Source: Natronolimnohabitans innermongolicus JCM 12255
GTDB lineage: Archaea; Halobacteriota; Halobacteria; Halobacteriales; Natrialbaceae
Assembly: GCF_000337215.1 (NCBI RefSeq)
Contig: NZ_AOHZ01000031.1
Span: 1-64,000, forward strand
Length of the DNA stretch: 64,000 bases
Direction: 5' to 3'
The notes beneath the pieces were generated by a model that searched no databases, was not told the origin of the DNA, and worked only from the letters and a program-made list of their open reading frames with translations. Positions 13,037-25,715 of the stretch are shown in pieces (position 1 is the stretch's first letter; each line of letters begins with the position of its first letter). Position numbers and translations under genes: made by a program.

Positions 13037-14332
13037 TTACTCGGCGTCTTCGTCTCCGTCAGCAGGGTCGTCGTCAGCGTCGGCGTTGTCGGCGTCGTCT
13101 TCGTCCTCGTCACCGTCGTCGGTGTCTTCCTCGATGTCCTCGAGGTCGCTCGCATCGGCGATCGTCATCGACTCGGCGTTCGCGGTGTCGATCGAGATCG
13201 CGGTTGCCGACGCCTGTGAGACGATTTCGGCGTCAGCATCGTCCTCGGCGTCCTCGTCGGGGTCGTCCTGCACGGCGGCCGCCTCGTCAGCGTCGTTTGC
13301 GTTCTCGTCCGCGTCTTCGTCGTCAGGCGCTTCGTCGTCCGCGTCTTCGTCGTCCGCGTCTTCGTCGTCAGCTTCCTCGAGTTCCTCGATCGTCATCGAA
13401 TCGATCGAGACCGCCTCGACGTCGAACTCCTCGATCGTGAGGTCGTCGATCTGTTGGGTCTGTGCCTCCTCGTCGTCGGCGTCAGCGTCTTCTTCGTCCT
13501 CGTCAGCGGCCTCGTCTTCAGGCTCTTCCTCTTCCTGGACGGCCGCCTCCTCGTCGGCCTCGTCGTTCTCATCGTCGTCGTTGAAGAGGCCGTCGAACCA
13601 GTCGCTGATGTCGTCGAGGAGCCCGCCGTCGTCGACCTCGAGATCGTCGATCGACAGCTGCTCGACGGTCATCGACTCGATGGTGAGGTTTTCGATGGTG
13701 AGTTCGTCAGCGTCCTCGTCGATCAGATCCTGCTCGCCGGCGTCGTCAGCGAGGCCGTTCTCCTCGTCGGCCTCGTCGTCAGCCATCTCGTCGTCGTCAG
13801 CGTCGTCCTGGATCACTGCGGCGGTTTCGGCCTCGTCGTCTTCGTCGTCAGCGAGGCCGTTCTCCTCGTCGGCCTCGTCGTCAGCCATCTCGTCATCCTC
13901 CTCTAGCTCGAGATCCTCGATCGAGACGGTCTCGAACTCGAGTTGTTCGATCTGGATGTCCGAGATCGTCACGTCACCGTCCGCCGTGTCGTCCATCGCG
14001 TCTTCGTCGTCGGCAGCATCGTCGTCAGCAGCGTCGCCATCGTTCGCGTCCTCGTCTTCGTCGTCCGTCTCAACGTCCTCGAGTTCCTCGTCGAGGTCCT
14101 CGTCGACGTCGAAGGTTTCGGCGTTCAGTTCCTCGATCGTCGCGTCCTCGATGGTGACGTCGTCGAGTTCGAGTTCACCGACCTGTACGTTTTCGAGTGT
14201 CGCTTCGCCCACGTCTCCGGCGTCGTCGTTCGCCCCGGTCGCGGTCGCGGCACCAGCGAGGGCGGGACCCCCCGAGAGCGCGACCAGCAGGGCGACGAGA
14301 ACGACGCCGCTTTGCTGCAGTCGTGAAACCAT
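13037..14332 (-). CDS. Secreted pentapeptide-like repeat protein with acidic linkers (paralog A)
   Basis: A 431-residue protein. MVSRLQQSGVVLVALLVALSGGPALAGA is a Sec signal. The mature chain alternates two elements. Five blocks (about residues 46-76, 121-144, 211-233, 298-319, 379-400) have a five-residue period [LM]-[TS]-[IV]-[ED]-x, for example LTIEN-LTIES-MTVEQ-LSIDD. Between them lie Asp/Glu/Ala linkers with ENGLADD and ETAAVIQDD motifs. The period suggests a right-handed beta-solenoid like pentapeptide-repeat proteins, though with Leu/Ile instead of Ala/Leu inward positions. No transmembrane anchor is seen at the C terminus. Function unknown. Its upstream neighbour on the same strand is paralog B. 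Confidence 0.8.
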   Translation of the reverse strand: MVSRLQQSGVVLVALLVALSGGPALAGAATATGANDDAGDVGEATLENVQVGELELDDVTIEDATIEELNAETFDVDEDLDEELEDVETDDEDEDANDGDAADDDAADDEDAMDDTADGDVTISDIQIEQLEFETVSIEDLELEEDDEMADDEADEENGLADDEDDEAETAAVIQDDADDDEMADDEADEENGLADDAGEQDLIDEDADELTIENLTIESMTVEQLSIDDLEVDDGGLLDDISDWFDGLFNDDDENDEADEEAAVQEEEEPEDEAADEDEEDADADDEEAQTQQIDDLTIEEFDVEAVSIDSMTIEELEEADDEDADDEDADDEAPDDEDADENANDADEAAAVQDDPDEDAEDDADAEIVSQASATAISIDTANAESMTIADASDLEDIEEDTDDGDEDEDDADNADADDDPADGDEDAE

Positions 14333-14701
14333 GCGGTCGACACTACCGGCGACACGGCGCTAAAGTGGGCCGACTGTTACAGCGTTGGGTTCGAGAAACG
14401 CACAGTTTGAAATCACGTCGCGTGCGCTAATCGAGCGTTCATCGTCTCCGAATCAGAGACCAGTACAGCGCCGAGTATTGAGCTCTGTCGGGCCAAAATA
14501 CGACTTGTGCCTGCGATCGCTGTTGACTTACTATCCGGCCCCGAGAACGCTTCGTTACTGGTCTCGGTGTTGAGACGTTCGGTCGCGGACCGTCAGGGGG
14601 TCACCGTGTTGGTACTCAGTGGCGCAGCAAAAAAGGATACGGCAGTGCGCGGCTGAATCGGGCGTCGTATCGCTCGACGCCGATCAGTTGTGGATCAGCG
14701 C
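14333..14701. other. Intergenic region between the secreted paralogs
   Basis: About 370 nt. The part next to 14332 holds the promoter of paralog A (see 14358-14380). The rest shows no coding frame with haloarchaeal character. A weak repeat of GTTGAGACGTTCGG-type sequence is not convincing. Paralog B ends at 14702 on the same strand, so this gap also carries its terminator. Confidence 0.5.
14358..14380 (-). promoter_or_regulatory. Promoter of paralog A, shared with paralog B
   Basis: Read on the minus strand: AACAGTCGGCCCACTTTAGC, with the TATA-like CTTTAG about 30 nt before ATG 14332. The same upstream block AACAGTCGGC followed 4 nt later by TTTAGC precedes paralog B at 16146-16168. This suggests leaderless transcription and a common activator or BRE context. 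Confidence 0.6.
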
Positions 14702-16120
14702 TTAGAAGAGGTCGGGGAGGAGTCCGTCGTCATCCTCCTCTTCCTCTTCGTCGTCAGCGTCGTCTTCAGCGTCTTCCTCGTCGTCGTCAGCCTCGTCGTC
14801 CTCGTCGTCATCCATCAGGCCGTCGTCGTCATCTGCTTCGTCTTCGTCATCCGTTTCGTCGGCTTCCTCATCCTCGACGTCCTCGAGGTCCTCGGCGTCA
14901 GCGATGGTCAGCGATTCGGCGGTTGCGTCACCGATGTCGATGGAGCTGGCAGAGGCCTGGGAGACGGTCTCCTCGTCGTCAGCCTCGTCGTCGTCCATCT
15001 CGTCATCGTTCATCTCGTCTTCGTCGTCAGCCTCGTCGTCTTCGTCGTCAGCGAGGCCGTTCTCTTCATCGTCGGCCTCGTCGTCATCCATTTCGTCGTC
15101 GTCAAGCTCCGCTTCCTCGACCTGCTCGACGGTCATCGAGTCGACGGTGATCTCGTCAACGTCGAACGTCTCGATGGTTAGCGACTCGATTTCTTGTTCT
15201 TCAGTTTCTTCGTCGTCAGCTTCGTCGTCCTCGAGGCCGTTCTCTTCGTCGGCCTCGTCGTCATCCATTTCGTCCTCGTCGTCAGCGTCGTCCTGGATCA
15301 CTGCGGCGGTCTCAGCCTCGTCGTCTTCGTCGTCAGCGAGGCCGTTCTCTTCGTCGTCAGTCTCGTCTTCGTCGTCAGCGTCGAGTGCGTCGTCGTCGTC
15401 AGCTTCGTCGTCCTCGACGGTCAGTTCGTCGATGGTCAGCGTCTCGACGTTCAGTTCTTCGATGGTGAGCTCCTCGACGGTGAGCTCGTCAGCGTCCTCG
15501 TCGATCAGATCCTGCTCGGCGGCGTCGTCATCTTCGAGGCCGTTCTCCTCGTCGTCGGCCTCGTCGTCATTCATTTCGTCTTCGTCGTCAGCGAGGCCGT
15601 TCTCTTCGTCGTCGGCCTCGTCGTCATCCATTTCGTCTTCGTCGTCAGCCTCGAGCTCGTCATCCTCCTCTAGCTCGAGGTCCTCGATCGAGACGTCCTC
15701 GAGTTCGAGGTGTTCGATCTGGATGTCGGAGATCGTCACTTCTTCTGCGTCAGCGTCGTCAGCGTCCTCCTCGTCCATCTCGTCGTCATCGGTCATCTCG
15801 TCGTCGTCAGCGTCGTCCTGGATGGCCGATGCGGTTTCAGCGTCGTCCTCGTCATCCGCATCCGCGTCTTCGTCAGCCTCGTCCAGTTCGTCCTGGAGTT
15901 CCTCGACGTCAGCGTCGAACTCCTCGACGTTCAGTTCCTCGATCGTCGCGTCTTCGACGGTAACGTTATCCAGTTCGAGTGTCTCTACATCTGCGTCTTG
16001 GATCGTTGCGCTCACGTCTCCATCGTCTGTCGCGCCGGCCGATGCGCTGGCGAGGGCGGGCCCTCCCGACATCGCAACCATTAGCGCGACGAATACGACT
16101 CCGAGCTTTCGTGACACCAT
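14702..16120 (-). CDS. Secreted pentapeptide-like repeat protein with acidic linkers (paralog B)
   Basis: A 472-residue protein starting MVSRKLGVVFVALMVAMSGGPALASA (Sec signal). It has the same architecture as paralog A: five blocks of period five (LELDNVTVEDATIEELNVEEF; VTISDIQIEHLELEDVSIED; LTVEELTIEELNVETLTIDE; LTIETFDVDEITVDSMTVEQ; IDIGDATAESLTIADAEDLE) joined by acidic linkers. ENGLADD/ENGLEDD occurs five times, and ETASAIQDD and ETAAVIQDD once each. The C terminus DDDGLLPDLF is hydrophobic and distinct from paralog A. An extension upstream to 16363 would run through the promoter, so ATG 16120 is chosen. Confidence 0.8.
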   Translation of the reverse strand: MVSRKLGVVFVALMVAMSGGPALASASAGATDDGDVSATIQDADVETLELDNVTVEDATIEELNVEEFDADVEELQDELDEADEDADADDEDDAETASAIQDDADDDEMTDDDEMDEEDADDADAEEVTISDIQIEHLELEDVSIEDLELEEDDELEADDEDEMDDDEADDEENGLADDEDEMNDDEADDEENGLEDDDAAEQDLIDEDADELTVEELTIEELNVETLTIDELTVEDDEADDDDALDADDEDETDDEENGLADDEDDEAETAAVIQDDADDEDEMDDDEADEENGLEDDEADDEETEEQEIESLTIETFDVDEITVDSMTVEQVEEAELDDDEMDDDEADDEENGLADDEDDEADDEDEMNDDEMDDDEADDEETVSQASASSIDIGDATAESLTIADAEDLEDVEDEEADETDDEDEADDDDGLMDDDEDDEADDDEEDAEDDADDEEEEEDDDGLLPDLF

Positions 16121-16145
16121 TGCACTCGACGCTTCTGACTCTGTC

Positions 16146-16168
16146 CGGCTAAAACGAGCCGACTGTTT
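16146..16168 (-). promoter_or_regulatory. Promoter of paralog B
   Basis: On the minus strand: AAACAGTCGGCTCGTTTTAGCC, with TTTTAG centred about 30 nt before ATG 16120. It matches the paralog A promoter block in sequence and in distance to the start codon. Confidence 0.6.
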
Positions 16169-16374
16169 CGAGATTATCTCGACGAAACCGACAGTTAGTA
16201 CTCGTGGAACAGTCCATAATCGCTGATTCATCGTATCGACGCCGATGACGGTCACGAGATCGGTTCTCGGGCCCGATTTCGGGAGAAATTCCCTTGTGCC
16301 TGCGATCGCTACCGCCTTATCCCACCCGGTGGAGAACGGAACGTTTACCGCCGCGCTCGCCAATGTCCGGCCGA

Positions 16375-17856
16375 ATGCGCGAGCACTTCGAACTCCGAGA
16401 CACCGACGCCGGCGGGCGAATCGGGGAACTCACCGTTCCGCGAGCGGGCGTCACCGTCGAGACGCCGGCGCTGTTGCCGGTGATCAACCCGAACCTCGAT
16501 ACGATCGCTCCCCGGCGGCTGGCCGAGGAGTTCGGCGCCGAGATCCTCATCACCAACTCCTACATCATCCACGGCACCGACGACGTCCGCGAGCGCGCCC
16601 TCGAGGACGGTCTCCACGAACTGCTCGAGTTCCCCGGCGCCATCATGACGGATTCCGGATCATTTCAGCTCTCCGAGTACGGCGACATCGACGTCACCAC
16701 CGAAGAGATCCTCGAGTTCCAGCGCGCGATCGGCTCCGACATCGCCACGCCGGTCGACATCCCGACGCCGCCGGACGTCTCCCGCGAGCGGGCGGAGCGG
16801 GAACTCGAGACGACTCAGGAGCGACTCGAACTCGCCGAAACCGTCGAGACGGGCGAGATGCTCGTCAGCGCGCCCGTCCAGGGTTCGACGTATCCGGACC
16901 TCCGCGAGGAGGCCGGCCGTCACGCCGACTCGACCGAACTCGACGTCTTCCCCGTCGGCGCGGTCGTCCCGTTGATGAACGACTACCGGTACGACGATAT
17001 GGTCGACGCCGTCGCCGGCGCCAAGCGCGGGCTGAGCGCCGACGCGCCGGTTCACCTCTTCGGCGCCGGCCACCCGATGATGTTCGCGCTGGGCGTCGCG
17101 ATGGGCTGCGATCTGTTCGATTCGGCCGCCTACGCGCTCTACGCGCGCGACGACCGCTACCTCACGGTTCGGGGGACCCGCAACCTCGAGGACCTCGAGT
17201 ACCTCCCGTGTTCGTGTCCCGTCTGTACGAGCCACTCGCCCGACGAGTTGCGTGCGCTGCCCGACGACGAACGCGAGACGGAACTCGGTGCGCACAACCT
17301 CCACGTCACCTTCGAGGAGATTCGCCGGATCAAACAGGCGATCCGCGCGGGCAACCTGCTCGAACTGGTCGAACAGCGCGCTCGCGCCCACCCGACGATG
17401 CTCGACGGCTACCGCACCCTGCTCGACCACGCCGCCCAACTCGAGCGCAGCGACCCCGTCTCGAAGGGCGCGTTCTTCTACACCTCCCACGAGAGCGCCC
17501 GTCGACCCGAAGTGTTGCGCCACCACCGGCGACTCGAGCGGCTGTCGGTTCCGGACTCGCTGTTTCTCACCGAAGGACAGCCGGCACGCGGCGACGAGTT
17601 CGACGACTCCTGGCGCGTCGAACCGCCGTTCGGACCGTTCCCGCGGGCGCTCTCGAAGAGCTATCCGCTCACCGCGGAAGTGCCGGCACGAACCGACAGG
17701 GCGGCACTCGAGGCGGCGGCCGACGGCGTCGCCCGCCTCGCCGAGGCGAATCCGGAGACGGATCTCACGCTTGGCCACCGTAGTTGGCCAGACGGGGTAC
17801 TCGAGCGACTCCCCGACGACGTGGCGCTGACCGACCTCTCGAGCGATCGGTCCTGA
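16375..17856 (+). CDS. tgtA: tRNA-guanine(15) transglycosylase
   Basis: A 493-residue enzyme that exchanges guanine-15 of tRNA for preQ0, the first tRNA-bound step of archaeosine synthesis. Seen: [13 protein letters not shown] with the active-site Asp93, [21 protein letters not shown] in the barrel, and the zinc site CSCPVC (Cys279, 281, 284) followed by TSHSPDEL. The C-terminal ~200 residues form the archaeal extension. ATG 16363 (MSGRMREHF) is an alternative start; MREHFELRD at 16375 matches the usual family beginning. arcS (27018) and the radical SAM partner (52614) lie elsewhere in the window. Confidence 0.94.
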
Positions 17857-17900
17857 TTGTACAGTGAGTCGACAACCGCCCCACATCCGCCTCGCTCAGA

Positions 17901-18018
17901 CGCGTTCTAGAGACGGACCAGACGATATATTCCGGCTTACCGTCAGTACCATTAGTTGTGCGCGTTCTAGAGACGGACCAGACGGTATATTCCGGCGTGC
18001 CGTCAACCACTAGTTGTG
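17901..18018 (+). promoter_or_regulatory. Tandemly duplicated nosD promoter
   Basis: Two ~60-bp direct repeats, 17901-17960 and 17961-18018, start CGCGTTCTAGAGACGGACCA and differ at only a handful of positions. Each contains ACCAGACG, then TATATT (17926-17931 and 17986-17991), then TAGTTGTG. In the second copy the final GTG (18016) is the nosD start, 28-30 nt after the TATA box. In the first copy the equivalent GTG (17958) opens a different frame. A related sequence precedes nosL. Confidence 0.85.
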
Positions 18019-19953
18019 CCCGCTCTCTCCACGACCAGGATCGCGCTGGGCGCGTTCGTCGTCATCGTCCTCGGCGCCGCCGGACTGTTCGTCGTCGATG
18101 CTGGATCGACAGCACCCGATCCCGTTGCGTTCGACGACACGGTTCACAGCGGAATTACGCTCGAAGCCGAACGTGAACTCGACGACGACGTCGAGTTGCC
18201 CCAAGCGCAGGTGTTCTATTCGCAGTATCAGTACGTCGTCGGCTACTACGGCGTCGAGACGTTCGCCCACGATCAACAACAACCCGAACACGAACAGCGG
18301 TTCGGCCATCCGCTGACGGTGTACGTCACCGACTACAGCGGGACCGGCGTCGAACTGAACGACGACGGGTATCCGACGACGGACAGCGCTCCGGAGTGGA
18401 CCGACGCCGAAACGGCGTGGTACGTCCTCGAGAGCGACGCGGAGACGCCGGCCGGAACGACCGTCGTTCCGTTTACCGACCGCGACGACGCCGACGCGTT
18501 CGCCGACGAACACGGCGGCGACGTTCGCGACTGGGAGGCGGTGCTCGAAGCCACGTACGACCGCGACGATGCGGCGGTCGCACGCGACCGCGTCGACGGC
18601 CACCAAGCGGTCGCCGACGATCGAGTCGAACAGACGGCAGACCTCACGGAGCGACCGACGTCGATGGTCGTCGGTTCCGACGCAGAGACGATTCAAGAGG
18701 CGGTCGACGAAGCACCAGCCGAGACGACGATCCGCGTCCCGAACGGAACGTACGAAGAAACCGTCGAGATCGACCGACCGATGACGATCGCCGGCGACGG
18801 GGACGTGACGATCCGTGGCGACGGAAACAGCTCGGTCGTCACCGTCACCACCGAGCGCGTCGCGGTCCGAAACGTCGCGATCGACGGCGTCGGCGAGACG
18901 ACGAGAGGCGACGGCGACGTCGACATCGGTGTCGACGACGAGGAGTTCGGCTCGACGTTCATGCGAAACTACGTCAGCACTGACGCAGGAATCACGGCCT
19001 ACAACGCCGACGAACTGCTCGTTCAGGACGTCCACATCGACACTCCGGCGAGCGGAATCCTCGAGTACGGAACCGACGACGCCGCCGTTCGAAACGCGAC
19101 GGTCATCGGCCCGGACGACCCGTCGGACGGTCTCGGCGGCGTGTTGTTGCTCCAGTCCAACGGCGTGATCGAACACTCCACGTTCGACGGCACACCCAAC
19201 GGCGTGTACCTGTTCCGGTCGCCGACGACGGTCGTCCGATCGAACACGGTTACGAACAACCAGCTAGGTATCCACCTGATGCACACGGACGATTCGCTTC
19301 TCGCGGACAACGAGGTACACGGCCAGGCCAACACCGGCGTGTACATCATGACGGGACCGGAGCGAAACGCGATCGTCGGAAACACGATTCGAGACACCGA
19401 CACCGGCCTCACTCCGGGCGGCAGCGACACCTACGTCGCGGACAACCGCATCGCGAACACGAGCGTCGGTCTTCGCATCGATACGGCCTCGTCGATCTAC
19501 GAGGGGAACGTCATCGTCGGCAACGAGGTCGGAGCGGACGTGACCGGGATGTTACCGACGAACCGCGTCATCGGGAACGACTTCGTCGGGAACGGCGAAC
19601 ACGCGACAACCGCCACCGGACCGCTGCGAATCTGGAGCGACGAGGGAGAAGGAAACTACTGGCAGGGCGCTGCTGGCGTCGCCAGCGGCGACTACGCCGA
19701 TCGATCGTACACCCCGACGGACGACGTCGACAAGCGACTCCACACGACCGACGGAACGCCGACGCTCGTTCGGGCGCCGGCCCTCGGCGCCCTCGCCGGA
19801 CTCGAGGGAACGGTCCCCGGAATGCGGACCGGCAGTATCGCCGACAACTACCCGGCCTGTGAACCGATCAACGCGGACCGACTCGAAGCGACCGGCTGGG
19901 ACGACCAAGCATGGACGTGCTACGAAACGACGCGCACACCGACCGATGACTGA
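18016..19953 (+). CDS. nosD: NosD copper-maturation protein with N-terminal NosL-like domain
   Basis: A 645-residue protein. A signal anchor (residues 8-28) is followed by a domain resembling the downstream NosL: VYVTDYS (102-108) and VPFTDRDDADAFADEHGGD (151-169) match NosL IYLTDYS and IPFGDGDDADAFADEYGGD. The NosL copper ligands (CxxCxM and the later cysteines) are missing here. From about residue 215 the NosD/CASH beta-helix begins (TIQEAVDEAPAETTIRVPNGTY), with repeated NxI/VxxN turns to about 570. NosD works with NosFY outside the membrane to mature nitrous oxide reductase. The GTG start is fixed by the promoter spacing. Confidence 0.9.
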   Translation: MPALSTTRIALGAFVVIVLGAAGLFVVDAGSTAPDPVAFDDTVHSGITLEAERELDDDVELPQAQVFYSQYQYVVGYYGVETFAHDQQQPEHEQRFGHPLTVYVTDYSGTGVELNDDGYPTTDSAPEWTDAETAWYVLESDAETPAGTTVVPFTDRDDADAFADEHGGDVRDWEAVLEATYDRDDAAVARDRVDGHQAVADDRVEQTADLTERPTSMVVGSDAETIQEAVDEAPAETTIRVPNGTYEETVEIDRPMTIAGDGDVTIRGDGNSSVVTVTTERVAVRNVAIDGVGETTRGDGDVDIGVDDEEFGSTFMRNYVSTDAGITAYNADELLVQDVHIDTPASGILEYGTDDAAVRNATVIGPDDPSDGLGGVLLLQSNGVIEHSTFDGTPNGVYLFRSPTTVVRSNTVTNNQLGIHLMHTDDSLLADNEVHGQANTGVYIMTGPERNAIVGNTIRDTDTGLTPGGSDTYVADNRIANTSVGLRIDTASSIYEGNVIVGNEVGADVTGMLPTNRVIGNDFVGNGEHATTATGPLRIWSDEGEGNYWQGAAGVASGDYADRSYTPTDDVDKRLHTTDGTPTLVRAPALGALAGLEGTVPGMRTGSIADNYPACEPINADRLEATGWDDQAWTCYETTRTPTDD

Positions 19954-20680
19954 GACACAACCGATACTCGAGGCGACGGGAATCGATCACGATTACGGGA
20001 CGGTCTCCGTCCTCCAGGACATTTCACTGACGGTTCCGCGGGGGAGCGTAACGGCGATCATCGGCCCGAACGGGGCCGGCAAGACGACGCTGATTCGCGC
20101 ACTCGCGGGACTCCACGAACCGACCGAAGGAGAGATCACGTACCACGGGCCCGAGACGGCCAGGCAGATCGGCTATTTGCCCCAACACCCCGCGTTTCGA
20201 CCCGGGTTCACGTGCCGCGAGACGCTCCAGTTCTACGCGTCGCTCGTCGGCGACGACGACGCCGCGATGGAGAAACTCGCTCGCGTCGGTCTCGAAGATG
20301 CGGCCGACCGGAACGTCGAAGCGCTCTCCGGCGGGATGACGCGACTGCTCGGAGTCGCCCAGGCGACGATCGGCGACCCGCCGATAATCGTCCTCGACGA
20401 ACCCGGAAGCGGTCTCGACCCGGGGATGAGCATGCACGTCTTCGACGTCGCGTCTGCGCTCGCCGACGAGGGGGTTTCGATTCTACTGACGTCTCACGAC
20501 CTCGAGTTAGTCGAGCGCATCGCCGACGAAGTGTTCGTGTTGTCCGACGGCCAGTTCGTCCAGCACGGATCGACGGCCGAACTCCGGGCGCGCTTCAACG
20601 CCGACTCGCTGTGGTCGGTCTACGAAAACGCGATCGAAGGCGACCTCGATACCGTCCGCGTTCAGGGTGAGCACGCATGA
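19946..20680 (+). CDS. nosF: ABC transporter ATP-binding protein NosF
   Basis: A 244-residue ATPase: Walker A GPNGAGKTT, signature LSGGMTR, Walker B IIVLDEPGSGLDPG, and the switch His in LTSHDLELV. Together with NosY and NosD it forms the transporter complex that supplies sulfur or a maturation factor for the copper sites of nitrous oxide reductase. Its ATG overlaps the nosD stop by 8 nt and its end overlaps nosY by 4 nt, so the three genes form one operon. Confidence 0.92.
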   Translation: MTETQPILEATGIDHDYGTVSVLQDISLTVPRGSVTAIIGPNGAGKTTLIRALAGLHEPTEGEITYHGPETARQIGYLPQHPAFRPGFTCRETLQFYASLVGDDDAAMEKLARVGLEDAADRNVEALSGGMTRLLGVAQATIGDPPIIVLDEPGSGLDPGMSMHVFDVASALADEGVSILLTSHDLELVERIADEVFVLSDGQFVQHGSTAELRARFNADSLWSVYENAIEGDLDTVRVQGEHA

Positions 20681-21555
20681 GTGACGAACTCTCGACGTCG
20701 AGTCGATCGACACCGGTACAGGAAGCCGAGACGCGGACAGCGCCGGATTCGAGACACCGCCTCAAAACGATCGTCGGGCGGGAACTGCGGACGGTCGTTC
20801 GAACGCGGACGTTTTTCGTGCTGGCGCTGGCGTTCGCCGCCGTCGTCCTCGGGATCGCCGCGGTCGGAGAGAGCATCCAGGCGGGCTACGTGCCGACGCT
20901 CGTCGACCTCCTCACGCCGCTCGAGTTGCTCGTTCCCGTACTCGCCGTCGCGTTCGGCTATCGCGCGATCCTCGGCGACGAGCAGCGAGGCGAACTCGAC
21001 GTCCTCGAGACGTACCCCGTTTCGAGCCGCGAACTCGTCCTCGGGGTCTATCTGGGTCGCGCGATCGGACTCGTCGTCACGGTTGTCGTGCCGCTTGCGA
21101 TCGTCGCGGTCGCGGTCGCCGTGACCGAAGGCAGTTGGCTGTCCATCTACGCGACACACTCCGGAGCCGATTCTCCGGTGCTGTTCGGCCGGTTCGTCGT
21201 GCTAACGGCGTTGTTCGCGCTCTCGGTCCTCGCGGTCGCGATCGCGATTTCGTCGGTCGTCAGCGGGACCCGCAGCGCGCTCGCGCTCGCCGTCGTCGCC
21301 CTCGTAGTCTTGCTCGTCGGGATCGATCTGGCGATCGCGTACGGCTTCTCGATCGGCGTTATCGGCGACTCGGAACTCGTCTACACACTCGCGGTCAGTC
21401 CGCTCAGTGCGTTTCGCGGCCTCGTCTTCGAAAGCGCCGTCGTCGTCGCTTCCGGCACCGGGCCGGACGTCGCCGCGCCACTCTCGAGTCTGGTGAGTCT
21501 CGTGGGCTGGACGGTCGGATCGCTCGCCCTCGCGACGTGGGCGCTGGATCGGTAG
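20677..21555 (+). CDS. nosY: ABC-2 type permease NosY
   Basis: A 292-residue membrane protein. A cytoplasmic start with TIVGRELRTVVRTRTFFVLALAFAAVVLGI is followed by about six hydrophobic segments. The loop GDEQRGELDVLETYPVSSRELVLGVYLGRAIGL is typical of ABC-2 permeases. It is the membrane partner of NosF. The start ATGA overlaps the nosF stop. No gene follows on this strand; nosL converges about 145 nt downstream. Confidence 0.9.
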   Translation: MSDELSTSSRSTPVQEAETRTAPDSRHRLKTIVGRELRTVVRTRTFFVLALAFAAVVLGIAAVGESIQAGYVPTLVDLLTPLELLVPVLAVAFGYRAILGDEQRGELDVLETYPVSSRELVLGVYLGRAIGLVVTVVVPLAIVAVAVAVTEGSWLSIYATHSGADSPVLFGRFVVLTALFALSVLAVAIAISSVVSGTRSALALAVVALVVLLVGIDLAIAYGFSIGVIGDSELVYTLAVSPLSAFRGLVFESAVVVASGTGPDVAAPLSSLVSLVGWTVGSLALATWALDR

Positions 21556-21700
21556 TGATCAGACCCAGTCGCGGCGACGAACCGGGATGGCAGAGAACGG
21601 AATCGTCGCTCGAATCTGTCCGATAGTGAGCGACTGATTATTGGGGTAAAACGGGAGCCGAGCCGAAATCAAGTTGGAACTGAACGGACCGGAGAGTCGG

Positions 21701-22300
21701 TTAACTCTGCATCAACGACATCACCAGTTCCTGTGTAATGTCGTCGTGTTCTTCCCTGTCGCCGCCGTACTCGTCGGCGAACGCGTCGGCGTCGTCGCCG
21801 TCACCGAATGGAATAATCGACGCACCCATCGCGCCTTCGACATCGCTATCGACCACCATCGTGAGCCCCGTCGCATCTTCGAACGCGTCGGCCTCGAGGT
21901 GGCGGCTGATGACGAGCGAGTCGTCGCCTTGCTCGACCGTCTCGTCGACGGCCGAGTAGTCGGTCAGGTAGATCACGTCGGGTTCAGCGTCGTCTTCGTT
22001 GGTGAACGTGAACGCGTACGCACAGAGCGAACTGCAGAACAGCGCCGGTCGATCCTCGATTTCGACGTCCGACGGGTCCTCGTAGTGAGCCTGTCCGGCG
22101 GGTCCGGGATGGTCGACGATACGCATCGAACACTGGTCGCAGTCCTGGTCGTCCTCGATTTCGATCGCTTCGGGGACGTCCTCGTCGTCGCCGTCGAGAC
22201 ACCCCGCGATCGCGCCGAGGGAAACGGTTGCGACGCCGCCGAGGACGACTCGACGGGAAACGAGCGATTCGGGAACGGTCGATGAAGTCGACTGGTCCAT
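21701..22300 (-). CDS. nosL: NosL copper-binding lipoprotein
   Basis: A 199-residue lipoprotein. SRR (15-17) and SLGAIAGC give a Tat-lipoprotein signal with Cys34. The copper site motif is CDQCSM (Cys54, Cys57, Met59), and FCSSLC adds Cys89 and Cys93. NosL delivers Cu(I) to apo-NosZ. The sequences IYLTDYS (110-116) and IIPFGDGDDADAFADEYGGD (162-181) are also found in the N-terminal domain of NosD in this window. It is convergent with nosDFY but has a matching promoter. No nosZ is present in the window. Confidence 0.92.
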   Translation of the reverse strand: MDQSTSSTVPESLVSRRVVLGGVATVSLGAIAGCLDGDDEDVPEAIEIEDDQDCDQCSMRIVDHPGPAGQAHYEDPSDVEIEDRPALFCSSLCAYAFTFTNEDDAEPDVIYLTDYSAVDETVEQGDDSLVISRHLEADAFEDATGLTMVVDSDVEGAMGASIIPFGDGDDADAFADEYGGDREEHDDITQELVMSLMQS

Positions 22301-22309
22301 ATGTACTAG

Positions 22310-22353
22310 TGGGCGGTCGACAATATACTCGGTCTGGTACAGTTCACGAACGC
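22310..22353 (-). promoter_or_regulatory. nosL promoter, related to the nosD promoter
   Basis: On the minus strand the order is GCGTTC, then GTACCAGAC, then GTATATT (22320-22327), then ACTAGT, then ATG 22300. The same four blocks in the same order, with similar spacing, make up both copies of the nosD promoter. TATA to ATG is about 24-27 nt, so the transcript is probably leaderless. Confidence 0.75.
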
Positions 22354-22421
22354 TCGGAGTGAACGGACGCGTACGTGGCCCATCGTGCAGCGACCGTACC
22401 GACCCGCCGAAAAGTAAACAA

Positions 22422-22443
22422 CCTCGGGCGCGGTGGCCCGAGG
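22422..22443. repeat. Right-end hairpin of the IS605-type element
   Basis: CCTCGGGC (22422-22429), six-base loop, GCCCGAGG (22436-22443): a perfect 8-bp stem just beyond the tnpB 3' end. This is where the end-recognition hairpin and the guide-RNA scaffold are expected. Confidence 0.7.
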
Positions 22444-22457
22444 CTTTTCTAATTCCC

Positions 22458-23762
22458 TCAGCCGTGCGCTAGCACTCCCTGCTCGGCAAGCGAGCGGGAT
22501 GAGGTTGGGCGGCTTACACGCCCCGACCCGGACAAACGCACCAACCGAACCTGAGGTTGGGTTTTGTGAGTCCGGTAATTCGATTCGTTACCGTCAAGCT
22601 TCGCCTTCTCGCGCCACGCGATGTTCACCGACGCATTCCGGTCAGCGTGGTCTTGCACCACATCACACTCGTCGTTCGTACACCGAAACCGCCGCCCCTG
22701 CCGACTGCCACGTTCACCACAGCACGAACACGTCTTCGAGTTGTAGTACGCGTCTACCGTATCCGTAGGAATCTCTCGCCACGTCGCCTTGTACGAGACG
22801 AACTTCTCGAACTTGTGGAACGGCAGTTTGTGCAACCGACGGTTCATATACGATCCATACTTAATTTCGTCGCGGATACCGCTCATATTCTCGAACACGA
22901 TAACCGGGTTCGAGAACTGCTCTGCAAACTCCACGACAGCACGGGAAAGCCGATGCAACACCCACTCGGTGAACCGCTCCTCCTTGTCACCGAGTCTGTG
23001 GTGGATGCTCGTTTTGCCGTGTTCTTGACAGCGAGTGGTGATAGTGTGGTAGCGTTGGCGTTCCTGCTTGACTCGTCCGTAGTCGAGGACGAGTGTCCCT
23101 TTCGTCTGCATCGTGTCGCGGTCGAGGGCGGTGAAAGCAACGTTGCGCTCGTTGATGTCCACGCCAATCACAGTATCGGCGGTGTCAGGTTCGGGGACGT
23201 CGAACTCGCGTGTGACCGTGACGTGTAGGTAGTACACGCCATCGCGGTACAGGAGTTCGGCCTGCCCAATATCCACTTCTTCAGACGTGAGGGCGTCTCG
23301 CAGTTCGTCCATTGCGTCCGGTTCGCCGCGCAGGTGTCCTTTCACCTTCTTGTAGGGTTTCGGGCTGATGCGGAACTGGACGCGGTTCGTGTCGTCATCT
23401 ACGGTGAGGCGGTACCCTTCTGTGTGCGCCATCACAAGCGGATACGCACCAGATTTGTCCGTACTCGGCGGAGTCGGCTTCCCTCCGTCAGGCTCGTCTT
23501 GGTTCTCCCACCAGTCTTTGAGTGATTGGTAGGAGTCCCATGTTTGGAGGGCTTTGCCGACGACCGCGCACTTGTTGTTCCGTAGGAAGTCGTCGCGGTC
23601 AACCTCCTTCTGTATCTCGGTGCGATTGTACCCTTGTTGTTTGAGGCGGATGGTTTGGTTGAATATTTCGCGTGAGGCGAGGCGGGCATTGTGAAGCCAC
23701 GATCGTTCACCAGACGCTATGTGGAGGCGCGTCCGGATCGTCTTCGTGGCTTCTTCACCCAT
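22458..23762 (-). CDS. tnpB: TnpB RNA-guided endonuclease
   Basis: A 434-residue TnpB of a subgroup different from the one at 3936. RuvC residues are all present: Asp202 in GVDINERNVAF, Glu291 in VFENMSGIRDE and Asp374 in DHADRNASVNI. The zinc ribbon uses Cys345/348 and Cys361/366. The N-terminal domain has RSWLHNARLASREIFNQTIRL. It should act as an RNA-guided nuclease that cuts the empty donor site and helps retain the element. The low similarity between the two TnpBs shows two separate insertion histories. Confidence 0.92.
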   Translation of the reverse strand: MGEEATKTIRTRLHIASGERSWLHNARLASREIFNQTIRLKQQGYNRTEIQKEVDRDDFLRNNKCAVVGKALQTWDSYQSLKDWWENQDEPDGGKPTPPSTDKSGAYPLVMAHTEGYRLTVDDDTNRVQFRISPKPYKKVKGHLRGEPDAMDELRDALTSEEVDIGQAELLYRDGVYYLHVTVTREFDVPEPDTADTVIGVDINERNVAFTALDRDTMQTKGTLVLDYGRVKQERQRYHTITTRCQEHGKTSIHHRLGDKEERFTEWVLHRLSRAVVEFAEQFSNPVIVFENMSGIRDEIKYGSYMNRRLHKLPFHKFEKFVSYKATWREIPTDTVDAYYNSKTCSCCGERGSRQGRRFRCTNDECDVVQDHADRNASVNIAWREKAKLDGNESNYRTHKTQPQVRLVRLSGSGRVSRPTSSRSLAEQGVLAHG

Positions 23763-23806
23763 GCTTTGACACTCGTTCTAACTCATCATAAATATAGGGA
23801 TTAGGG

Positions 23807-24214
23807 ATGGAAGAGTACCGCAGTCATGCACATTCGGTTAGTTCCTGTAAGTGTTATTTTGTCTGGTGTCCCAAGTACCGCCACCCGATTCTCAACGTGG
23901 TTGAAGACGATGTGCGAGAGTTGTTTGGTGAGACCTCCGACCACTTCGGGCATAAAATTCTGGCGTTGGAGATTGCAGACGACCACGTACACCTGTTCGT
24001 CCAGTGCGACCCAAAACACAGTCCAGCCGACCTCGCCCGGCAGTTCAAGTCGTACTCGGGTAAGCACTTGCTGGAGCGGTATCCCGAGATTCGGGAGTCG
24101 TATTTCTGGGGCGGTGGATTCTGGAAGGTTGGGTACTACGTGGGAACGACAGGTGCGGTATCGGAGGAAGTGGTTGAGCGGTATACAGAAGAGACGGAAC
24201 ACGCGCTGGAGTGA
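23807..24214 (+). CDS. tnpA: IS200/IS605 Y1 transposase TnpA
   Basis: A 135-residue HUH single-strand transposase. The metal-binding HUH motif is His60-Val-His62 (ADDHVHLFVQ), and the catalytic tyrosine lies in WKVGYYVGTTG (Tyr110 or 111). The length equals that of the family, and the open frame is intact, so the element may be autonomous. TnpA excises and inserts the element as single-stranded circles by recognising the subterminal hairpins. It could also mobilise the solo-tnpB element at 3829-5187 if its ends are recognised. Confidence 0.93.
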   Translation: MEEYRSHAHSVSSCKCYFVWCPKYRHPILNVVEDDVRELFGETSDHFGHKILALEIADDHVHLFVQCDPKHSPADLARQFKSYSGKHLLERYPEIRESYFWGGGFWKVGYYVGTTGAVSEEVVERYTEETEHALE

Positions 24215-24224
24215 CGCGCTTCAC

Positions 24225-24296
24225 CCCCGCCCACGGTGTTGACGCAAATCGAAGATTTGCGAAAGCCGAAAACCGCAGGTTTTCGGAAGGGCGGGG
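24225..24296 (+). repeat. Three-way-junction structure at the tnpA end
   Basis: An outer stem CCCCGCCC (24225-24232)/GGGCGGGG (24289-24296) encloses two perfect hairpins, CGCAAATC-GAA-GATTTGCG (24243-24261) and CCGAAAACC-GCA-GGTTTTCGG (24266-24286). This is more elaborate than a simple IS hairpin. It could be the left-end recognition structure or a structured RNA at the end of the tnpA transcript. Confidence 0.7.
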
Positions 24297-24315
24297 AACT
24301 CGCGCTGTTTTTCGT

Positions 24316-24645
24316 TTAGACGTCGATTCGAGCACCGTCGCGTGACTCGGTGCGAGCGCCCGTCGATTCAGAGACCGACGTTCCGTCGACCGTCAGCTCG
24401 AGCGTCTCGTCTCGCTCGACGACGATCTCGTGTCCGGCGTAGACGAACTCCAGTCGTCCGCATCGCGGACCGGCGGTCCGGGTCGGTTCGAACAGCGAAT
24501 CGAGCGCGTCGGGCTCGATCCACTCGTACAGCGGCGGCAGGTCGGTCGGTTCGACGCCGCGTTTCGTCGCGACGGCCGTGACGACGGCGACGCTGACGTC
24601 TCCGTCGGGGCTGTCGGTGGTCGAACCGATAGATGAATTACTCAC
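24316..24645 (-). CDS. HalOD1 output-domain protein
   Basis: A 109-residue protein starting at GTG 24645 (MSNSSIGSTTDS), which lies about 25 nt after a TATA-like TTTTAT. The single HalOD1 domain is seen in SVAVVTAVATKRGVEPTDLPPLYEWIEPDALDSLFEP...GRLEFVYAGHEIVVERD. HalOD1 (halobacterial output domain 1) occurs alone or attached to receiver domains and is thought to be a signalling output; its molecular role is unknown. Two further HalOD1 genes lie at 52177 and 61269, but this one lacks the HTH_10 neighbour those have. It is convergent with tnpA. Confidence 0.85.
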   Translation of the reverse strand: MSNSSIGSTTDSPDGDVSVAVVTAVATKRGVEPTDLPPLYEWIEPDALDSLFEPTRTAGPRCGRLEFVYAGHEIVVERDETLELTVDGTSVSESTGARTESRDGARIDV

Positions 24646-24755
24646 ACTAGACGCCAACGGTCGAGCACATAAAAGGGTAGCGGCAAATGCAGCTTCGGCG
24701 AAGTAAAGCAGTTATTTATTTCGGTTTCCGAAATGAACTTCGTCTTTAGTGACGT

Positions 24756-25229
24756 TCAGGAGGACGTCTCTGTCGTCCCGAAGTGATCGAACGGCTGGCG
24801 GTACTCCGTTTTGACGAGTTCCTCCCGTTCGATCTCGAGACCGTGTGCCGCGAGCTGGCTCACGGTCGCCGTAATTTCGTCGGTGTCGGCGGCGACGACG
24901 TCGATTCGGAGGTTCCCGCGACCGGTAACGAGTTCGCGAACGAGGACGACACCACCCGTCTCGAGTGCAGCCTCCGCCAACGTTTCGCGCTCGTCGACCG
25001 GTGCCGTACACTCGACGACGACGCGCATCGGCCGCTCGGTTCGCTCGTACTCGAGTAGCGGCACGTAGCCCGTGATCACGCCGGCCTCCTCGAGTCTGTC
25101 GATGCGGTTGCGGACGGTGTTGGCCGTGACGCCGACCTCGCCGGCGATGTCCGTCGCCGTCGTGTGTCTGGCGTCGTCCTGTAGTCGATGGAGGATCCCC
25201 CTGTCGATATCGTCGAATTCGAACCCCAT
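24756..25229 (-). CDS. Lrp/AsnC-family transcriptional regulator
   Basis: A 157-residue regulator: MGFEFDDIDRGILHRLQDDARHTTATDIAGEVGVTANTVRNRIDRLEEAGVITGYVPLLEYERTERPMRVVVEC. The winged HTH (about 5-60) is followed by the AsnC ligand domain. It is a close paralog of the regulator at 5355-5831; both keep NRIDRLEE-GVI-GYVP and similar C termini. The long upstream frame is an overlap with the opposite-strand TRAM gene, so the start is ATG 25229, divergent from that gene by 96 nt. Confidence 0.9.
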   Translation of the reverse strand: MGFEFDDIDRGILHRLQDDARHTTATDIAGEVGVTANTVRNRIDRLEEAGVITGYVPLLEYERTERPMRVVVECTAPVDERETLAEAALETGGVVLVRELVTGRGNLRIDVVAADTDEITATVSQLAAHGLEIEREELVKTEYRQPFDHFGTTETSS

Positions 25230-25325
25230 ACCGTTCGTTTCGCTGGCACAACCAAGCCGCTTTGGGTCGGCGCCACCGCTCTGGAAAACAGAACAGCAAA
25301 GGTCCGCGCCCGGCCAGAGTCGACC

Positions 25326-25688
25326 ATGCTCGGGGCGACCTCGCTCGTACTTGGACTGATCGTCTTCGTCGTCTTCACGTCGTGGCTCGTCAGGCGGTTT
25401 CGCGGCGGGGACGAACGCGGAGACCGTCGGGAGTCCTACGAGCGCCATCAGGAAGCACAGGGGCGGGAGCCACCGGTCGGGATCGGCGACAGCGTAACGG
25501 CCGGGGTTCACGAGTTTACCGAACACCACACGGGCGAGCGACAGGCCGTCTGCAAGATCGAGGGGTTCGTCGTCTTCGTCGAGGATATTCCGGCCGGCCT
25601 CGAGGTCGGCGATGCGATCGAGTTCACGATCCTCTCGTTCAACCGCGGACACACCTCCGCGACGGGTACCTACGACGGGCGAGTCTGA
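25326..25688 (+). CDS. Membrane-anchored TRAM-domain protein
   Basis: A 120-residue protein. MLGATSLVLGLIVFVVFTSWLVRRFR is an N-terminal membrane helix with a positive cytoplasmic flank. After a charged linker, a TRAM-like OB fold follows (VGIGDSVTAGVHEFTEHHTGERQAVCKIEGFVVFVEDIPAGLEVGDAIEFTILSFNRGHTSATGTY). Stand-alone TRAM proteins bind RNA and act as RNA chaperones in archaea; a membrane-tethered version is unusual in layout, though the same form occurs in other haloarchaea as far as I recall. It is divergent from the Lrp gene. Confidence 0.8.
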   Translation: MLGATSLVLGLIVFVVFTSWLVRRFRGGDERGDRRESYERHQEAQGREPPVGIGDSVTAGVHEFTEHHTGERQAVCKIEGFVVFVEDIPAGLEVGDAIEFTILSFNRGHTSATGTYDGRV

Positions 25689-25715
25689 CACCGGCGATTT
25701 TTCGCTGCCACCGCG

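Follow-up and report, generated by a model that had tools for sequence, protein, structure and literature searches.

The locus raises a simple question: what, if anything, does a second copy of a promoter do when it carries its own start codon in front of the gene? The window analyzed here (64,000 nucleotides of Natronolimnohabitans innermongolicus JCM 12255, referred to as G000) belongs to a draft assembly of 121 contigs that totals 4.59 Mb and is 99.78% complete. Upstream of nosD, two copies lie head-to-tail on the plus strand, copy 1 at 17901-17960 (60 nt, the last codon being an extra GTG) and copy 2 at 17961-18018 (58 nt, ending with the nosD start codon). Positions 17901-17945 match 17961-18005 at 93% identity over 45 nt with a spacing of 60 nt, and beyond this block the repeat runs on, through a 2-nt indel, up to GTG 17958 and GTG 18016, respectively. 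Each copy contains the same box, TTCTAGAGACGGACCAGA (17905-17922 in copy 1 and 17965-17982 in copy 2, identified by pattern match and core score), followed by a TATATT element (17926-17931, with an A directly 5', and 17986-17991) that lies 26 nt from the GTG in copy 1 and 24 nt in copy 2. The copies differ by four substitutions (A17925/G17985, T17937/G17997, A17939/G17999 and T17952/C18010) and by the dinucleotide GT at 17946-17947, which is found in copy 1 only and falls, in alignment with relatives, at the promoter-proximal CCWA element. The repeat pattern, with up to three mismatches allowed, did not occur in any of 100 shuffles, and an assembly artefact is unlikely, because the two copies are distinct at four bases and one indel. 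An earlier sequence-only reading, which described a tandem 60-bp repeat placing two TATA boxes and two GTG codons before nosD, was thus correct on these points, the exact lengths being 60 and 58 bp.

We compared the locus with its counterparts in related genomes, including Natronolimnohabitans sp. A-GB9 (G001), the sole other species of the genus in the comparison. The interval between the aligned blocks of tgtA and nosD is 108 nt here versus approximately 41 nt in G001, with flanking sequence alignable at 87% and 82%, indicating a single promoter copy in G001. Upstream regions of the NosD family (approximately 45 loci from many genera, orthologues and paralogues together) contain one promoter with a rigid layout, namely TTC[G/T]A - N7 - ACCAR - N4/5 - TATA - CCWA element - GTG (sometimes ATG). 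The distance from the first T of the box to the start codon is 50 or 51 nt in 44 of the 45 loci, a pyrimidine immediately precedes the start codon in 43 of 43, and the position of the nosD start is kept in relatives. This fixed spacing, together with the pyrimidine, argues strongly, if indirectly, that initiation at that codon is leaderless. Among the NosD-family loci scanned, a second site scoring above 8 bits within approximately 400 nt upstream was found at the window locus only; copy 1 has no counterpart in the sister species or at any related locus. Of 125 genomes of the family, 3 have tandem boxes separated by 20 to 50 nt, the two besides this one being arranged differently, and the duplication is restricted to this species among the genomes compared.

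Compared with relatives, the two copies are not equivalent. Copy 2 has the geometry of haloarchaeal leaderless promoters (51 nt from box to GTG and a pyrimidine before the GTG, with the 5' end predicted at that codon), and it has the consensus base at both positions where copy 1 departs. In copy 1 the GTG lies at 53 nt, as against 50 to 51 nt in the nosD family and 50 to 52 nt among members of the box family, where the SCO1 genes go up to 52 nt, so that 53 nt is barely beyond the observed range and fits a leader of 0 to 5 nt. Position 20 of its core, 5' of the TATA box, is A, the base found in only 1 of 44 relatives (G in 32 of 44), and position 41 is G owing to the GT insertion (A in 40 of 44 relatives, G in none of the 44). 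Both departures at conserved positions, as well as the indel, therefore sit in copy 1, and none sits in copy 2. Because the family geometry is found in copy 2, and copy 1 is at 53 nt with two conserved positions altered, we infer that copy 2 is the native, ancestral promoter, from which nosD would start leaderless at GTG 18016, and that copy 1 is the extra one. The earlier proposal that a whole promoter had been duplicated, start codon included, holds, and GTG 18016 does have leaderless geometry. The 33-nt cores of the two copies differ at a single position and score 31.5 bits (copy 1) and 35.0 bits (copy 2), both within the family range of 27.3 to 45.1; the box of copy 1 is intact by this measure, and copy 1 is probably a weaker derivative rather than a dead promoter.

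The box itself is not confined to this gene. In its own genome the pattern TTCKA-N7-ACCARA has 14 matches versus 1 for the reversed pattern, and in ten relatives it has 95 versus 16. The genes found 50 to 52 nt 3' of the box are mostly NosD fusions, SCO1/SenC chaperones (eight box sites at 51 to 52 nt from the start codon of SCO1 genes) and NosL lipoproteins, and copy 2, whose box stands 51 nt ahead of the nosD start, belongs to the box family as we define it here. In three genomes from other families of the order, the box lies 60 to 130 nt upstream of a NosD match. Sites in the same genome include C75:21544-21561, C75:23204-23221, C84:140642-140659, C84:146388-146459 and C50:28587-28604; the box, whose position is mostly locked at 50 to 52 nt, is also seen upstream of a gene for a DUF7475 membrane protein. 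Other arrangements were encountered as well. In G001 two boxes 40 bp apart (C1:9138-9195) precede a TrmO/TsaA-like gene, and a similar arrangement exists in the present genome (C2:62515-62532), at a distance from the TrmO/TsaA-like start that is not the usual 50 to 52 nt; in another genus of the family, box-like repeats are arrayed approximately 20 nt apart (G125 C1:1114270-1114350, locus L142). Our search of the literature for haloarchaeal copper regulons, for tandem promoters and for upstream open reading frames (ORFs) found no description of the box.

These gene associations bear on what the operon is for. Downstream of the repeat, all on the plus strand, are a gene for a NosL-NosD fusion with a predicted leaderless GTG start (18016-19953; Pfam NosL at 62-178 and NosD at 382-552), a nosF-like ABC ATPase (19946-20680; ABC_tran) and a nosY-like ABC-2 permease (20677-21555; ABC2_membrane_2). 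An amino-terminal NosL domain is typical of NosD in this family, and most members, distant paralogues included, start with GTG. Together with a separate NosL, the nos accessory set (nosD, nosF, nosY and nosL) is thus present. In the draft genome (99.78% complete), nos_propeller (PF18764), searched for as a marker of NosZ, had no match, as compared with matches in 5 of the 10 genomes searched; the NosZ model TIGR04246 gave matches below cut-off only, and NirK gave none above cut-off. The NarO or denitrification box of haloarchaea (CGAA-N4-TTCG, given as CGAAYATDKTYG in PMC10062603) was not found at 17600-18020, and none of the five nosZ-containing regions that we examined has the box described here. 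Like the NarO system (PMC10062603), the present one has a short box 5' of the promoters of nos-type genes; it differs in that the NarO box is missing at 17600-18020 and the element present, TTC[G/T]A-N7-ACCAR, adjoins the TATA box. The sequence-only reading had spoken of a nos promoter and of denitrifying conditions. Given that nosZ and nirK were not found, that the NarO box is missing, and that the box is common to SCO1 and NosL genes, the label of nos or denitrification is misleading, and the operon looks like one for copper-enzyme assembly; TTC[G/T]A-N7-ACCAR would then be the mark of a candidate haloarchaeal copper-enzyme assembly regulon.

Several features of the neighborhood deserve mention in their own right. 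A putative IS200/IS605-type element occupies 22395-24214, with a TnpB-like ORF (22458-23762) and a TnpA-like ORF (23807-24214), both named from their sequences, and a match to the sot2652 RNA on the minus strand (22395-22579). A search of 17800-25500 against Rfam returned insertion-element RNA only, and no tRNA was found at 16000-20000. At the site of this element, the sister species and another relative have a box-preceded SCO1 gene beside the operon. The window locus appears to lack SCO1, and a SCO1 gene of this genome sits on contig C75 instead. Near the copper operon, an ORF on the minus strand with an AsnC-type helix-turn-helix domain (24756-25691) is a possible candidate for the regulator that binds the box. 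Upstream, at 13037-16363 on the minus strand, are two adjacent, very acidic, repeat-rich proteins of secreted type (431 and approximately 550 amino acids) that look like tandem paralogues.

We then come to the consequences of the extra start codon. Much as had been claimed from the sequence, GTG 17958 opens a frame of 72 codons (17958-18176, plus strand) that is out of phase with nosD (GTG 18016) and overlaps its first 161 nt, ending at 18176. Frames of this length are common in this genome: when the equivalent relative frame is entered at random in 28 long acidic ORFs from the window, a stop is reached after a median of 63 codons, and the probability that the frame stays open for 53 or more codons (53 being the portion within nosD) is 0.54. 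The product is rich in arginine, contrary to the acidic proteins of haloarchaea, and a Pfam search matched it to no family. Because its length is ordinary for the genome and its product is Arg-rich and unmatched in Pfam, the existence of this ORF is no evidence of function; a coding role was rejected on the ordinary length and the absence of a Pfam match, and the ORF is probably a by-product of the duplication. No purpose for the extra, out-of-frame GTG is apparent from the letters.

The reading that we favor, with a probability of about 0.62, is that a complete, regulated, leaderless promoter of the copper-assembly regulon was recently duplicated in this species, with copy 2 ancestral and any effect of copy 1 transcriptional. 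The unit duplicated would comprise the box TTC[G/T]A-N7-ACCAR, the TATA box, the promoter-proximal element and the start codon, so that the out-of-frame GTG was carried along with it. From copy 2, leaderless transcription of the nosDFY-type operon would begin at GTG 18016. Copy 1, with its regulator box and TATA box intact, is probably still bound by the regulator and by TBP/TFB, and may fire weakly to give a transcript 58 to 62 nt longer. Because its box and TATA box are intact and drift has affected its proximal element and start spacing, whatever influence it may have is expected to be mainly transcriptional: it could supply one more binding site or a second, weak start, or two initiation complexes could compete, being only 60 bp apart, a distance at which general footprint sizes imply that they would probably overlap. 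Initiation could increase, a weak leadered transcript could arise, or the two copies could interfere mildly with one another. RNA structure in the extended leader was considered as a separate explanation and rejected, in that the RNA of 17955-18075 folds no better than shuffled sequences (z 0.18).

Against this stands the proposal that copy 1 dampens or tunes translation of nosD, its transcript starting at or a few nucleotides from GTG 17958, so that ribosomes read the 72-codon ORF and make little NosD. The intact box and TATA box (31.5 bits) and the pyrimidine-purine steps of copy 1 at 49 and 53 nt, one of which is T17957-G17958, mean that copy 1 could act as a full promoter with a start at or near that GTG; transcription could conceivably begin at 17954 or 17958, and the GTG behind a leader of 0 to 4 nt would still qualify as leaderless by the Haloferax volcanii definition. 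Initiation at GTG 17958 is conceivable because, in Haloferax volcanii, leaders of 0 to 5 nt are classed as leaderless and act accordingly (PMC4983044), and the resulting frame does stop 161 nt inside nosD. The same GTG, however, lies at 53 nt rather than at 50 to 52 nt, behind a degraded promoter-proximal element, and it opens a frame of expected length (probability 0.54 for at least 53 codons) whose Arg-rich product has no family match and is without conservation. Leaderless GUG initiation, moreover, was very poor in the reporter studies that PMC4983044 cites; ribosomes on a transcript from copy 1 could pass over its first GUG and so escape capture, just as they could initiate there, and the direction of a translational effect is therefore unpredictable. 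We regard this proposal as quite unlikely: translational damping is possible but unsupported, the overlapping frame being ordinary in length and composition and seen in one species only, and, since the duplication is known from one species, selection is not demonstrable by conservation. A stronger version, in which copy 1 responds to the same copper signal as a decoy, its leaderless transcript being read out of frame across the nosD start to make the operon self-limiting, strikes us as very improbable.

A more prosaic account, to which we give some weight while doubting it, is that copy 1 is a neutral slippage product, bound and used at levels too low to have an effect and in the process of decay. 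Replication slippage is a source of short tandem repeats of this kind, the duplication is found in one species only, and the two conserved-position departures and the indel are all in copy 1, with none in copy 2. Yet strong decay is not what the 33-nt cores indicate, differing as they do at a single position, and the duplication may be young.

The arrangement has partial counterparts elsewhere. In Haloferax volcanii, two start sites were found for 139 of 1851 expressed genes (7.5%), and 111 of the 139 produce one leaderless and one leadered transcript, the leadered one usually being the weaker (PMC4983044). The pair predicted here, leaderless and leadered, is of the same kind; the difference is that the two promoters are tandem copies, the upstream one with its own start codon, and that both start sites are predicted. 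The arrangement is in this sense a variant of the leaderless genes with two start sites, and its interest in itself is modest. The long undecoded transcript isoforms (LUTI) of yeast (PMC8153250) are similar in that a longer transcript from an upstream promoter could block the main frame and disturb the proximal promoter; the parallel is an analogy only, the duplication here being known from sequence alone. Were the decoy reading true, one 60-bp duplication would have made a simple promoter self-limiting, a LUTI-like device gained in a single step.

Whatever copy 1 does, the duplication offers a natural one-step test of a second leaderless promoter that carries its own start codon. The conserved, position-locked box is a more useful result than the duplication; it provides a handle on how haloarchaea regulate the delivery of copper to their enzymes, and it argues that annotations of nos genes in genomes that lack nosZ are better read as copper assembly.
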